A stretch of 27,273 nucleotides of DNA from a virus. The notes under the pieces are model-generated. The model saw nothing but the letters and a program-made list of their open reading frames with translations. It was not told the DNA's origin and searched no databases. Within the stretch, counting starts at the first letter, position 1. The number at the start of each line of letters is the position of its first letter. The stretch is from positions 1-27,273 of IMG/VR virus record IMGVR_UViG_3300033233_000145; one strand, given 5' to 3'. The translations under genes were made by a program, and so were the position numbers. Shown piece after piece: positions 570 to 3,530 of the stretch.

Positions 570-1039
570 GCCGCCTCCTTTAGTCGCACGATGACCTCGG
601 CGGGGTCCATCGGCTCCCCGAAGCGGCGAGCTCGGAGCGCCGCGTAGCCCTCGGAGCCGAGCAGGCGCTCGCAGAAGTCGTAGTGCTCGTCCGGGTTCAG
701 CGTCAGGTAGTGGTGGTGGGCGACGCAGCCAGCCGCCCCGTTGCCGATCCCGTCCGTGCCCTCCCCCACGTCCCAGCGGAGCGCCTGGTACCTGCGGCGG
801 ACCAGGTGCATATGCTGGAGGGCTCCCAAGCACGCGATGTCGGGGAAGAACTCCCGCGCCACGCAGCGGCCGTCACGCTCGCGGATGTAGCGGGACACGA
901 GGTCGTCGGCCTTCTTCCAGGCGTGGGACTTGCACATGCCTTCGATCCGCGGCGGCTCGGCACAACGCTGAAACGAGCACTTCACCTTCGGGGGGCGACG
1001 TGGCTTGGCTCGGCGTCGGGGCATCGGCGTGCGCTTCAT
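566..1039 (-). CDS. NinG/Rap-like recombination nuclease
   Basis: This 157-aa protein has a basic N-terminus (MKRTPMPRRRAKPRR), a Cys cluster at C21, C26 and C36 with H39, then a core resembling lambda NinG/Rap: RYIRERDGRC (50-59), QHMHLVRRRYQALRWD (75-90), GCVAHHHYLTLNPDEHYDF (104-122) and LLGSEGYAALRAR. In the Rap family this layout (GHF..RR...RWD...C..CN..) forms a zinc-dependent fold that cuts recombination intermediates; here the family's Cys/Asn positions are partly His. The ATG shares one base with the stop of the fusion gene (TGATG), implying translational coupling. An Erf-like annealing protein in the same operon supports a recombination role. It could instead be a general HNH nuclease; the fold call is from motif pattern only. 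Confidence 0.65.
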   Translation of the reverse strand: MKRTPMPRRRAKPRRPPKVKCSFQRCAEPPRIEGMCKSHAWKKADDLVSRYIRERDGRCVAREFFPDIACLGALQHMHLVRRRYQALRWDVGEGTDGIGNGAAGCVAHHHYLTLNPDEHYDFCERLLGSEGYAALRARRFGEPMDPAEVIVRLKEAA

Positions 1040-3282
1040 CAGAGGCGTCCGACCGGTGCGAACTCGTCACGGATGGCCTTGATGTCGCCCTTGTACGCGA
1101 CGATGATCCGCTGCTCGCGCTTGGGGAACTTGCGGACGTTGAGGGTCTTCTTCGCCTGGGCTAGCCGCGTGAACTCGGCCTCGAGGTAGACGATCTTGTT
1201 GTAGACGCTGAGGCCCTGTTCCTTGAGGAACACTTCCGTCTCGGCCTCGTGGCAGTGGTACGCGCCGTCCTTATCCCGGCTGTCGCCGGTCATCACCACG
1301 AAGAAGCGGTTATCGCCTAGGTGTTTGAGCGCGGTCGTGTAGCCCGCGAACAGCGTGTCGCGGAACTCGTCATAGGAGGGGAGCGCGTTGATCTCACCGG
1401 GGGGCGGCGAGCCATCGTAGTCCACATATCGCTCGACCCGGTAGTACGGCGGACAGGTGAACACGAGGTCCCATTCACCTTCCGGCTCGTAGGTCGCGCT
1501 ATCGGCCTGGACCCAGCGCACATCGGCGAACTCGCTGCAGAGCGCGTTGTTCGCGTCACACTGGTTCTGTCTGATCTCGCTCGCCTCGTACTGATACCCG
1601 CTGGCGCCGGCGACGAACCCGAACTGGACTCCACCCCCGAACGGGTTATAGACGCGGCGACCCTCACGCGGCGTGAAGAACCGCAGGATGACCTCGCACG
1701 CGACAGGATCGAGCACCGAGGCGTTGCCATTGTGCGACCGGCCGGTCACCACATTGGCGAACCCGGCCTCGCCCTGCCAGCATCCTTCCCGCGTGGCGAA
1801 GGACGGATTGGGGATTGCCTCCCTTTCCCCGGCCTCGGTGAGACGTTCGTTCCACTCTTTCTTGAGCCGCAGCCAGTCGCCCTTCGTGCTGTTCCAGACG
1901 TTCGTCATCGTGATGTGAGCGAGGGTCTTCAGCCGGTGGTACGCGGGGTCGCCTGCGAGCATGTAGTGGAAGCCGGACATCTGGAGGTAGGTCGAGAATC
2001 CGAGGCTCTCGAAGAGGGCAGGTGTCTCGAACTTGCTCTTGGGGTTCGTGGTCATGAGTGCGGGGAGGTTGTCGGTATTGCACTCGAGCACCTCTTCGGC
2101 CATCGCCCTGTAGAGCTCGGGCGAATACACGTCCGGTCGGATGACGGACTGCAGGAGGCAGAACTCTCCATCCTTCGCGTTGTTCTGGAAGGTGAAGAAC
2201 CCGGCGAACTCACCACCCATCAGCAGGATGATGGCCGAGTGAATCTGCATGTTCTTGCGCGCGGCCCGGTGCGCGATGCCGTCTTCGAGAGCGAGGGCCG
2301 CGACCTGCTCCTCGTAGCCCGACCCGATCACGCTTTCGACATAGCGAAACTCGATGCCCGCCTCGATCGGTAGTTCATCCCTGTGCTGCTCTTCCTCCGG
2401 TTCGAAGAGCATCATGCTCTGGGACATCCAGTCCTCCTTCGCTCGTCGGGTGTGCCATCCGTCGATCACCCCGCACTGGTCGGGGCAGGTGCTGCAGTGC
2501 CCTAGATAGACCTCGGGGTTGTGCAAGGAGACCAGCGTGCCCCCGCCGATGGAGTCGGGGCGGCGGGTCGCCTTGAGGTCCCCACTGAGAAGCCTTGGAT
2601 TGTCAGGACTCACCCGCAACGGGTTGTCGATGAGTGGTTCCAACGTGAGCAGGTAGTCCTGCCGCGCTGCGGCCTGTCGGCCCCATTCGGTATCCCCGTA
2701 GTCCGCCGTCACCACACGGTTGATACTGGTGATCCCCGCGTCACGGATGCGGTACATCTGCTCCACCCGGAACCGCATCTGGGCGTCGGTGTCGAACCCA
2801 CTGGTCGAGGTGTTCACAACCACGTCGAGGTCGAGCATCCGGCTGAGATGCTCGTCGGATAGGGGGAGCCAGTGCTTCGTGATAATCACGGCCGTCTTCT
2901 TGGCGGGCTGAAGCGCTCTGATCACATCCAGGGTATGCGGCCAGTCGTGACAGGGGTCACCCATTACCCCGATGCGATACCAACTCGCCGAGTGGTTGAG
3001 CAGTTGCCGGATAATCATGTCGCGGTGCTGGCGGGTGTCCGCGAAGTGACGGGATACGCTCGTACTGAAGTCGATGCCGTACCGAGTCGCGATGGTGTTC
3101 GCATAGCACTCGTCGTAACACCCCCGGCCGTTGTGGCCAGCGCGCATCCCCGCCGTGCAGCCCTTGACCGTATCGACATCCATGCAGCCCTTCAGGTTGA
3201 CGGACGCCGTGATGATGTCGTGATAGCCGCGCGGGACTCGCTCCACTACCCCTAGGTCGAGCTTCACCCGCACGGCGCTCAC
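1039..3282 (-). CDS. Three-domain fusion: radical-SAM-like, GNAT-like and CPPYY DNA methyltransferase
   Basis: The start chosen is GTG at 3282: it makes a GTGA overlap with the MazG-like gene and has GGAG five bases upstream. GTG 3297 is possible in frame. Length is 747 aa. Residues 1-290 carry Cys33, Cys42, Cys55, Cys59 (GRGCYDECYA) and a later CSTCPDQC (263-270). The GC...C..CYA pattern and the following VMGDP/TKHW segments recall the phage Gp37/Gp68 (DUF5131) radical-SAM-like family, although the spacing is not the canonical CxxxCxxC. Residues about 308-440 look like a GNAT acyltransferase fold ending FESLGF. Residues about 490-735 are a DNA amino-methyltransferase: YNPFGGGVQFG (545-555, SAM loop) and TCPPYY (609-614, catalytic), then a KGD tail typical of phage DNA modification methylases. 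Known: such methylases modify adenine-N6 or cytosine-N4. Inferred: the extra domains elaborate the added group. No partner nuclease is visible. Confidence 0.8.
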   Translation of the reverse strand: MSAVRVKLDLGVVERVPRGYHDIITASVNLKGCMDVDTVKGCTAGMRAGHNGRGCYDECYANTIATRYGIDFSTSVSRHFADTRQHRDMIIRQLLNHSASWYRIGVMGDPCHDWPHTLDVIRALQPAKKTAVIITKHWLPLSDEHLSRMLDLDVVVNTSTSGFDTDAQMRFRVEQMYRIRDAGITSINRVVTADYGDTEWGRQAAARQDYLLTLEPLIDNPLRVSPDNPRLLSGDLKATRRPDSIGGGTLVSLHNPEVYLGHCSTCPDQCGVIDGWHTRRAKEDWMSQSMMLFEPEEEQHRDELPIEAGIEFRYVESVIGSGYEEQVAALALEDGIAHRAARKNMQIHSAIILLMGGEFAGFFTFQNNAKDGEFCLLQSVIRPDVYSPELYRAMAEEVLECNTDNLPALMTTNPKSKFETPALFESLGFSTYLQMSGFHYMLAGDPAYHRLKTLAHITMTNVWNSTKGDWLRLKKEWNERLTEAGEREAIPNPSFATREGCWQGEAGFANVVTGRSHNGNASVLDPVACEVILRFFTPREGRRVYNPFGGGVQFGFVAGASGYQYEASEIRQNQCDANNALCSEFADVRWVQADSATYEPEGEWDLVFTCPPYYRVERYVDYDGSPPPGEINALPSYDEFRDTLFAGYTTALKHLGDNRFFVVMTGDSRDKDGAYHCHEAETEVFLKEQGLSVYNKIVYLEAEFTRLAQAKKTLNVRKFPKREQRIIVAYKGDIKAIRDEFAPVGRL

Positions 3283-3530
3283 ATCGACTCCAGCCACGCG
3301 ACTGCCACGGCGGCGATCTCGATCAGCTCGGCACGGATACCCGGTTCGTCGCCCTCAAGGACCGCGGAGGCGACCTCGCCGCATTCCTCCGTTAGTACGG
3401 CGACCTTGACGATGACCGGAACATCCGTCGAGGAGCAGTCTCCGTAGCCCCAGCCGTGATCGCGGGTCCACAGGAGCCCTTGTCGTACACGTTCGGCGTC
3501 GATGCGCTCGTAGATGTCGGCGCGCTTCAC
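3279..3530 (-). CDS. MazG-like nucleotide pyrophosphohydrolase
   Basis: This 83-aa all-helical protein reads IYERIDAERVRQGLLW near its N-terminus and TEECGEVASAVLEGD at about 47-61, followed by ELIEIAAVAVAWLESM. The EExxE...E(L)xx(A) pattern is the metal-binding arrangement of the MazG/all-alpha NTP pyrophosphatase family, which hydrolyses (d)NTPs to monophosphates. The length is usual for phage single-domain members. GTG at 3530 overlaps the preceding stop as GTGA, and its own stop overlaps the fusion gene start. The location next to a DNA-modification enzyme is compatible with nucleotide-pool housekeeping, but that link is inference. Confidence 0.8.
   Translation of the reverse strand: MKRADIYERIDAERVRQGLLWTRDHGWGYGDCSSTDVPVIVKVAVLTEECGEVASAVLEGDEPGIRAELIEIAAVAVAWLESM

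Follow-up and report, generated by a model that had tools for sequence, protein, structure and literature searches.

A conserved viral module of radical-SAM, GNAT and DNA methyltransferase parts suggests a chemical modification of viral DNA not described before

The window analysed here is a stretch of 27,273 nucleotides of viral DNA (IMG/VR record IMGVR_UViG_3300033233_000145), in which one long gene combines a radical-SAM-like part, a GNAT-like part and a DNA methyltransferase (Table 1). This three-part frame had been picked out in an earlier note made from the letters alone, and it is indeed present, on the minus strand; plus-strand translation of the same interval is interrupted by stops. 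An alternative in-frame GTG at 3297 would give a protein of 752 aa (1039 to 3297, minus strand). The likelier start is the GTG at 3282, since it overlaps, as GTGA, the stop codon of the preceding MazG-like ORF and a GGAG stands five bases upstream of it. Residues are numbered here by the 752-aa version, which adds 5 to the 747-aa numbers of the earlier note. Structure prediction (AF2) covers the radical-SAM part (hereafter A) and the GNAT part, and the methyltransferase was assigned by sequence.

Table 1. Features of the three-part gene and its upstream neighbour in the window
Feature	Position	Strand	Basis
Three-part gene	1039..3282	-	747 aa from GTG 3282
Radical-SAM domain (A), residues ~21-280, predicted	2458..3237	-	AF2 pLDDT 92.2, pTM 0.87; Foldseek and VIA matches
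Presumed [4Fe-4S]/SAM cysteines C47-X12-C60-X3-C64	3106..3159	-	all three kept in 56/57 rows
C-terminal cysteine cluster C268-X2-C271-X3-C275	2473..2496	-	invariant in 57 rows of alignment A1
GNAT-fold domain, residues ~313-453, predicted	1939..2361	-	AF2 pLDDT 84.4, pTM 0.80
DNA methyltransferase domain, phage ParB-MTase kind, residues ~462-752	1042..1914	-	phrog_12517, phrog_498, alignment A5
Motif I NPFGGG (551-556)	1630..1647	-	conserved in alignment
Motif IV CPPYY (within TCPPYY 614-619)	1441..1455	-	conserved in alignment
Upstream MazG-like ORF, 83 aa	3279..3530	-	PF03819 E 0.0024, below cut-off

As had been proposed for residues 1-290, A is predicted to take the (beta/alpha) partial TIM-barrel fold of the radical-SAM superfamily. 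The VIA match of residues ~25-279 to 4fhf had a Z of 12.4 over 227 residues (rmsd 4.5); spore photoproduct lyase rows stood at the top of the VIA list (Z 12.4-11.8) with viperin-like rows tied at 11.6, and the best Foldseek radical-SAM match had an E of 1e-4, with low TM-scores (0.35-0.42 by query length in the first 17 matches). Of the cysteines listed in the earlier note, C42, C55 and C59 (here C47, C60 and C64) and the CSTCPDQC cluster are conserved, whereas C33 (here C38) is a cysteine in only 7 of 57 rows. C64 is invariant in the 57-row alignment of A, as are C268, C271 and C275, while C47 and C60 are each retained in 56 rows. The canonical CX3CX2C was not found as the motif of A, which carries CX9-12CX3C in 56 of the 57 rows; two CX3CX2C strings among these rows come from an extra cysteine after the motif. 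Radical-SAM families with other cysteine spacings exist. C47, C60 and C64 are presumed to be the [4Fe-4S]/SAM cysteines, and C268, C271 and C275 may form an auxiliary cluster or a zinc site. Membership of A in DUF5131 (PF07505) is doubtful, as 4 of 57 members matched, weakly and below the cut-off (best E 0.001; 11.5 bits against a curated cut-off of 28.9 for the L080 member). An NCBIfam scan of the members of A gave scattered weak rows, including PA0069-family radical SAM in 2 of 57 (best E 0.018).

The middle part is likewise predicted to have the fold proposed for residues 300-445, that of GNAT, with a VIA match to 1xeb of Z 16.3 over 130 residues (rmsd 2.0) and 917 of 999 chains at Z>=8. 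Polar residues R344, R347, N349, Q351, H353, E378 and Q383 are invariant. The acyl addition envisaged in the earlier note is without direct support, since the acyl-CoA loop [RQ]xxGx[GA] after strand 4 is missing in all 65 rows of the GNAT alignment. The suggested likeness to Mu Mom, the product of which is N6-carbamoylmethyl-adenine, did not extend to sequence. The 65 GNAT members gave a list of 14 families at E<=1 that does not include the Mom profile PF25680, and hhalign against 11 Moms returned a probability of 0.2%; membership of the Mom family was therefore rejected, although both are GNAT folds. In a fold search among viral folds the Mom S4TTR0 came at rank 18 (E 1.1e-4), amid many GNATs.

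The C-terminus is, by its sequence, a phage ParB-type CPPYY amino-type DNA methyltransferase, in agreement with what the NPFGGG and TCPPYY motifs had earlier been taken to mean. It matches phrog_12517 (E 3.5e-38) and phrog_498, "DNA methyltransferase" (E 2.8e-35), and it satisfies both the amino-type motif I and the motif IV pattern [DNSC]PP[YFW]. In this family motif I, NPFGGG, serves SAM binding and motif IV, CPPYY, is catalytic. NPFGGG is kept in 66 of 67 rows and CPPYY in 65 of 67, and T614 of TCPPYY is absent from the list of positions kept in at least 93% of rows. The window protein had no match to Pfam N6_N4_Mtase, and one relative (L044) reached an E of 0.001, below the cut-off. As a separate observation, 48 of 51 non-redundant loci with methyltransferase relatives pair them with a SAM decarboxylase. 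Only 2 relatives came from a scan with the Pam4 protein.

The three-part arrangement is more than a chance event and belongs to a widespread family, given that 152 relatives were found in viral contigs; contigs carrying the module were binned with at least three bacterial phyla. The parts are either fused or encoded by genes that overlap or adjoin, and in 92 of 106 non-redundant loci A is fused to, or lies beside, the GNAT-methyltransferase or its contig-cut start. The single chain on which the earlier note had laid weight holds for the window gene and is not essential, since A is a separate neighbouring gene in 44 of the 106 loci. A scan for A alone fetched 76 new loci, many of them on contigs known from the first scan, and at least the GNAT part adjoined A in 71 of them. 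In four loci A had no GNAT-methyltransferase gene in the fetched stretch, and three of these were not at a contig end.

The GNAT-methyltransferase stands without A in 9 of the 106 loci. In seven of these a second radical-SAM gene (A') lies directly downstream, in one of them as a remnant of 88 aa, and the two remaining loci begin at a contig edge. A tree built from 98 rows shows 13 changes of the fused state, at least 7 of them forced, and 7 changes of the A' state, at least 4 of them forced. Radical-SAM, GNAT and amino-type DNA methyltransferase thus form one conserved unit, and the association in 92 of 106 loci, together with the recurrent replacement of A by A' and the forced switches, is strong evidence that they also work as one functional unit. 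A' has the canonical CX3CX2C motif; of the six full-length A', two were scanned and matched Pfam Radical_SAM above the cut-off (E 4.9e-8 and 7.8e-8). The profile match between A and A' is weak (probability 30%, E 5.5e-4).

The genes around the module support a DNA-modification context. A adjoins a TAGT glycosyltransferase in two loci (L151 and L161), and where A' occurs without the GNAT-methyltransferase its neighbours include ParB, DNA methyltransferases and TAGT. Such genes were a minority: of 103, 14 were ParB, 5 N6_N4 methylases and 3 C5 methylases, and most of the direct neighbours of such A' were not DNA-modification genes. A Mom-like gene and the three-part module are found together on 4 contigs (6 loci). 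A coupled MazG-like gene had been suggested as part of the system; the GTGA overlap in the window holds, but only 6 of 106 loci were seen to have a MazG-like neighbour, the window included and one (L067) lying beyond A', so that MazG was rejected as a component. These counts come from a profile search from two seeds, by which diverged genes may be missed, and a stricter pattern gave 2 of 106. Among the 12 window ORFs scanned, no gene of the 5-hmdU pathway was recognised.

From sequence and predicted folds, we consider it probable that the three-part protein is a phage DNA-base hypermodification module. The methyltransferase domain would put a SAM-derived group, methyl by default, on the exocyclic amine of adenine or cytosine. 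The radical-SAM part, which has the DNA-acting spore photoproduct lyase among its nearest solved folds, would take a hydrogen from the transferred group or from the base and leave a reactive carbon. The GNAT domain, which shares a chain with the methyltransferase, may complete, acylate or position the adduct, probably with a donor that does not bind in the usual acyl-CoA loop. A base so modified would shield the phage genome from host nucleases.

The missing loop would also suit a GNAT domain that has no catalytic role and that reads DNA or dimerises in the place of ParB, leaving the product to the methyltransferase and radical-SAM parts. In several related phage methyltransferases the GNAT position carries a ParB annotation, and in L254 the methyltransferase next to A' has no GNAT and matches ParB weakly (E 0.004, below the cut-off). 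The many invariant polar residues and a mean column identity of 57%, against 33% for A (from partly different row sets), are more than a plain scaffold would appear to need, however, and this reading is possible though doubtful. That spore photoproduct lyase heads the VIA list might instead mean that the radical-SAM part is an enzyme of repair or reversal, which mends or removes a lesion or a methyl and builds nothing; we judge this decidedly unlikely, as A stays durably coupled to one GNAT-methyltransferase despite changes of fusion and partner and adjoins TAGT in two loci.

It is highly improbable that the module acts on protein or RNA. GNAT and radical-SAM enzymes do often target proteins and tRNA, but the methyltransferase is of the DNA ParB-MTase kind and the neighbours of A' include ParB, DNA methyltransferase and TAGT. 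An ordinary N6-adenine or N4-cytosine methyltransferase carrying passenger domains would explain NPFGGG and CPPYY, which suit amino-methyltransferases; a passenger would hardly be kept across at least seven forced fusion changes and be swapped for another radical-SAM gene, and this explanation too seems very unlikely.

The hypermodification reading could be carried further, in a direction that we regard as rather unlikely. The methyltransferases of this clade may do more than methylate and serve as a platform, attaching larger SAM-derived groups (3-amino-3-carboxypropyl, or aminopropyl from decarboxylated SAM) to DNA bases, with companions tailoring that amine or amino acid; the window product would then be an aminoalkyl base, radical-edited and possibly acylated, of a kind not described so far. 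The companions in question are radical-SAM and GNAT in the window family, a PLP enzyme in R6L, Pam4 and AlanGrant, and SAM decarboxylase in the P2559S/ZRG1 family.

Thymidine hypermodification in phages M6 and ViI starts from 5-hydroxymethyl-dU plus an amino acid as primer, whereas here an amino-type methyltransferase sits on the same chain. As is proposed for the module, phage radical-SAM and acetyltransferase-type enzymes there sculpt a DNA base; a radical-SAM isomerase, a PLP enzyme and an acetyltransferase are reportedly involved (Lee et al., NAR 2022). A' matches the M6 radical-SAM protein gp53 (E 3.2e-7, probability 93%), but A of the window has no significant match to it (E 0.056, probability 1%) and is doubtful as its direct homologue. 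The phage ParB-DNA methyltransferases (phrog_498; AlanGrant gp1, phiFL3A gp36, HCTV-2 gp11) share the methyltransferase domain, with 26-33% identity over seven phage proteins, and the CPPY motif, but the window family has GNAT where ParB stands and a radical-SAM partner. Spore photoproduct lyase and COG1533-like radical-SAM proteins have a fold in common with A and a CX3CX2C motif in contrast to its CX9-12CX3C. Mu Mom, described in passages of PMC7824862 as a GNAT superfamily enzyme on adenine in DNA, shares that superfamily with the middle part and no sequence match.

No description of this three-part protein was seen among the matches listed in the literature searched, which comprised titles, abstract openings and passages of PMC10853773, PMC7824862, PMC7641849, PMC10783043 and PMC9992855; subscription papers lay mostly outside, so this absence is a weak one. 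A tblastn search of 50,697 phage records gave no convincing relative of either A or the GNAT part, and hence no isolate for reference. When isolated phages were searched with A, with the GNAT part of the window and with a stand-alone A, each search returned a single chance row (E 2, 3 and 8). PDB sequence searches gave nothing useful; their PPR rows, with no stretch passing on its own, and scorpion-toxin rows (E 5-7) were taken as chance.

The module forms a defined cassette of one or two genes and suggests that viral DNA is chemically modified by a route not yet described. If true, this would be a radical-SAM and GNAT hypermodification route primed by a methyltransferase and not by 5-hydroxymethyl-dU, spread over many uncultured phages, with radical-SAM and GNAT parts that have no recognised counterpart in isolated phages. 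Together with the SAM-decarboxylase and PLP enzymes that accompany it, the wider methyltransferase clade suggests a store of DNA chemistry yet to be described.

The 747-aa frame described in the earlier note was found to be real, but it lies on the minus strand of what, given the terminase and portal genes (PHROGs) on this virus record of 27,273 bases, is a tailed-phage sequence. Two GTG starts are available for this ORF, and the downstream one is the better start, since it forms a GTGA overlap with the stop of an upstream 83-aa MazG-like ORF and has GGAG five bases 5' (residues are numbered here on the longer version, that is, the 747-aa numbering plus 5). The proposed architectural core, a radical-SAM part (A) and a GNAT-methyltransferase part (GM) in one protein, agreed with both the predicted folds and the motifs. 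Pfam gave no match anywhere in the protein at E<=1, and PHROGs matched the methyltransferase part only (phrog_12517, E 3.5e-38; phrog_498, E 2.8e-35). No description of such a protein was found in the titles, abstract starts and passages that the literature search covered, most subscription papers lying outside it, and neither A nor the GNAT part had a convincing match in any isolated phage among 50,697 records.

Coordinates of the three-part gene and of features in other loci (L numbers) fetched from viral contigs, bacterial genomes or phage records
Locus	Positions	Strand	Feature
Window	1039-3297	minus	Three-part ORF from GTG 3297, 752 aa
Window	1039-3282	minus	Three-part ORF from GTG 3282, 747 aa
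L041	3770-5871		GM gene, then another GNAT gene of this family, diverged and truncated at the contig end
L086	7569-7835		88-aa A' remnant 3' of intact GM; contig of a Massilibacteroides MAG
L151	2170-3791		A (in two pieces) beside TET-associated glycosyltransferase, without GM
L161	3562-6783		A beside TET-associated glycosyltransferase, without GM
L153	5506-7926		Stand-alone A adjoining PAPS-reductase PP-loop gene and a gene ParB-like by eye
L206	3995-4728		Microbacterium phage Antuna: tRNA-Gly gene, opposite strand, directly after Mom-like acetyltransferase gene
L207	6039-8459		Erythrobacter phage R6L gp1: PALP domain and methyltransferase
L209	1012-3498		Pseudanabaena phage Pam4: PLP enzyme by annotation, methyltransferase match near C-terminus
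L211	2494-4336		Pseudomonas phage ZRG1: ParB-type methyltransferase with SAM decarboxylase
L296	1982-3620		Croceibacter phage P2559S: ParB-type methyltransferase with SAM decarboxylase
L300-L379			ParB-type methyltransferases with SAM decarboxylase

The structure of residues 1-300, predicted with 57 sequences (pLDDT 92.2, pTM 0.87), bore out the radical-SAM fold anticipated for the N-terminal part. In a Foldseek search the top 17 rows were all radical-SAM enzymes (best E 1e-4; TM low, 0.35-0.42 by query length), and VIA-align placed spore photoproduct lyase 4fhf first (Z 12.4, rmsd 4.5, 227 residues), with viperin-like enzymes tied (11.6) and pyruvate formate-lyase activase near (11.3). C47, C60 and C64 are kept in 56 of the 57 aligned rows, the odd row being without C47 and C60 because its frame is split. 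The C47-C60 gap is 9 to 12 residues and the C60-C64 gap 3, a spacing that differs from the canonical CX3CX2C, and C268, C271 and C275 are invariant across all 57 rows. C33, which had been counted in the first Cys cluster (C38 here), is Cys in just 7 of the rows and so is not conserved.

A GNAT fold was likewise recovered for the middle part. Residues 301-480, predicted with 65 sequences (pLDDT 84.4, pTM 0.80), have the strand-helix order of GNAT and aligned to 1xeb with a VIA Z of 16.3 (rmsd 2.0, 130 residues), 917 of 999 chains having Z>=8. Many residues of this part are invariant in the alignment, and the acyl-CoA loop [RQ]xxGx[GA] was seen in 0 of 65 rows over residues 378 to 410. One related GNAT gene in L041 matched Pfam Acetyltransf_1 below the cut-off (E 0.0023). 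When the GNAT part was run against a viral fold library, the top row was a 464-aa uncultured-phage protein (52% identity), which fits membership of the same family (AGM), and a Mom came at rank 18. The link to Mom drawn in the earlier note gained no support from sequence: the 65 GNAT members brought up 14 listed families at E<=1, PF25680 not being one of them, and hhalign against 11 Moms gave a probability of 0.2%. A Mom-like gene is additionally present on four AGM contigs (L027/L143, L028/L134, L062 and L072), that of L062 matching Pfam Mom at E 1e-46. The tRNA-Gly gene of phage Antuna could have a bearing on Mom's donor.

A first scan of viral contigs returned 152 relatives (80 kept), a second one with the A alignment as query 211, and a GNAT-alignment scan of bacterial genomes 6; as only the closest 80 of the 211 were fetched, distant A genes may differ. 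Together with the window, these made up 163 loci, 106 of them non-redundant at 95%. Both A and GM are present in 92 of the 106, fused in 48 (47, plus one with a broken frame) and as separate genes in 44, so that the single chain is not essential to the system. The separate genes stand as GM then A (28 loci), A then GM (13, plus 2 with A split) or A then a GNAT gene truncated where the contig stops (1), and among the 92 loci A is cut by the contig end in L087 and short in L047. The remainder have GM without A (9 loci), GM with the second, truncated GNAT gene (L041), or A without GM (L135, where the contig ends, L151, L153 and L161). GNAT and methyltransferase share one chain, the exceptions being contig ends, L107 with its broken frame and the additional GNAT gene in L041. 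The A query by itself brought in 76 new loci (L088-L163), many of them on contigs already found by the first scan. The GNAT part or more adjoins A in 71 of these; the other five are L151, L153, L161 and, both cut by the contig end, L135 and L137. A MazG-like gene, earlier described as coupled, was found beside the module in only 6 of 106 loci. The glycosyltransferases adjoining A in L151 and L161 (PF20691, E 7.8e-42 and 3.5e-15) possibly mark another modification pathway.

Residues ~462-752 form a methyltransferase related to phage ParB-methyltransferases, sharing 26-33% identity with seven phage proteins, of which two were compared as C-terminal stretches only. Matches were found in 23 phage records, duplicates included, and gene context was inspected in 12 phages. 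In R6L the PLP enzyme domain (PALP, Pfam) is on the same protein as the methyltransferase and, from profile positions, seems to separate the motif I region from the CPPY half; AlanGrant gp2 is a PALP gene adjoining the methyltransferase gene. A SAM decarboxylase adjoins the methyltransferase in ZRG1 and P2559S, another methyltransferase or ParB gene does so by annotation in Mae-JY30 and HCTV-2, and no such companion was recognised beside it in phiFL3A, Funu2, B054, prophiGD43A-5 and D_HF5_3. The P2559S and ZRG1 methyltransferases are 47% identical, their ParB part being assigned by alignment in the former and by annotation in the latter, and a scan from both gave 264 relatives, of which 80 were kept. 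SAM decarboxylase occurs in 74 of these 80 loci (48 of 51 non-redundant), within 300 bases in 73, and A, A' (a second radical-SAM gene, described below), GNAT and PALP in 0 of 80 with up to 2 kb searched per side; neither SAM decarboxylase nor PALP occurs in any AGM-family locus within the fetched stretches. According to one report (PMC9992855), an E. coli speD deletion regained spermidine when given the P2559S decarboxylase, which hence makes decarboxylated SAM. The P2559S/ZRG1-type pair is a candidate for DNA aminopropylation, and the pairing, taken with that activity, suggests that this clade may deal with groups derived from SAM besides methyl.

Two of the nine GM loci without A (L030 and L042) start at the contig edge. 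In the other seven (L043, L051, L062, L066, L067, L069 and, as a remnant, L086) a different gene, A', lies directly 3' of GM. The two scanned, those of L069 and L066, matched Pfam Radical_SAM above the cut-off (E 4.9e-8 and 7.8e-8), and the six full-length A' genes carry CQHDCxYCY, the canonical CX3CX2C. By hhalign A and A' are in register over 163 columns, weakly so (E 5.5e-4, probability 30%). Compared with gp53, the radical-SAM protein of phage M6, A' gave a match (E 3.2e-7, probability 93%) and A no significant one; M6 is reportedly known for a hypermodified thymidine. A scan with A' returned 130 relatives (80 kept), the profile detecting A' in 78, or 66 non-redundant loci. GM is next door in 14 of the 66, of which five belong to seed contigs of the A' alignment and one more (L225) has match values identical to those of another seed contig. 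The 103 direct neighbours of A' in the 52 loci without GM include ParB_N (14), N6_N4 methylase (5), C5 methylase (3), TAGT (2), PAPS reductase (2) and SAM synthetase (2). Among 90 control genes four places away there were one ParB_N and one C5 methylase; N6_N4 methylase and TAGT did not appear in the 25 families listed of 41, so that one member each is possible.

On a tree of 98 GM sequences, built by a quick method, the fused state required 13 changes, at least 7 of them forced by well supported branches, and the A' state 7, at least 4 forced, gains and losses being indistinguishable; the A' label showed no clustering (500 of 500 shuffles as low). A radical-SAM gene persists although its place, chain and subfamily change, and this persistence through the switches is the strongest evidence that A or A' and GM are a single functional unit. 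In such a unit GM would attach a group at adenine N6 or cytosine N4, A or A' would generate a radical on that group, and the GNAT fold, which lacks the usual CoA loop, might complete or position the adduct. The first group placed by GM may be methyl or, less probably, something larger. Judged by the computed folds, motifs and coupling, and with chemistry of the kind proposed, the whole unit probably serves DNA-base hypermodification.
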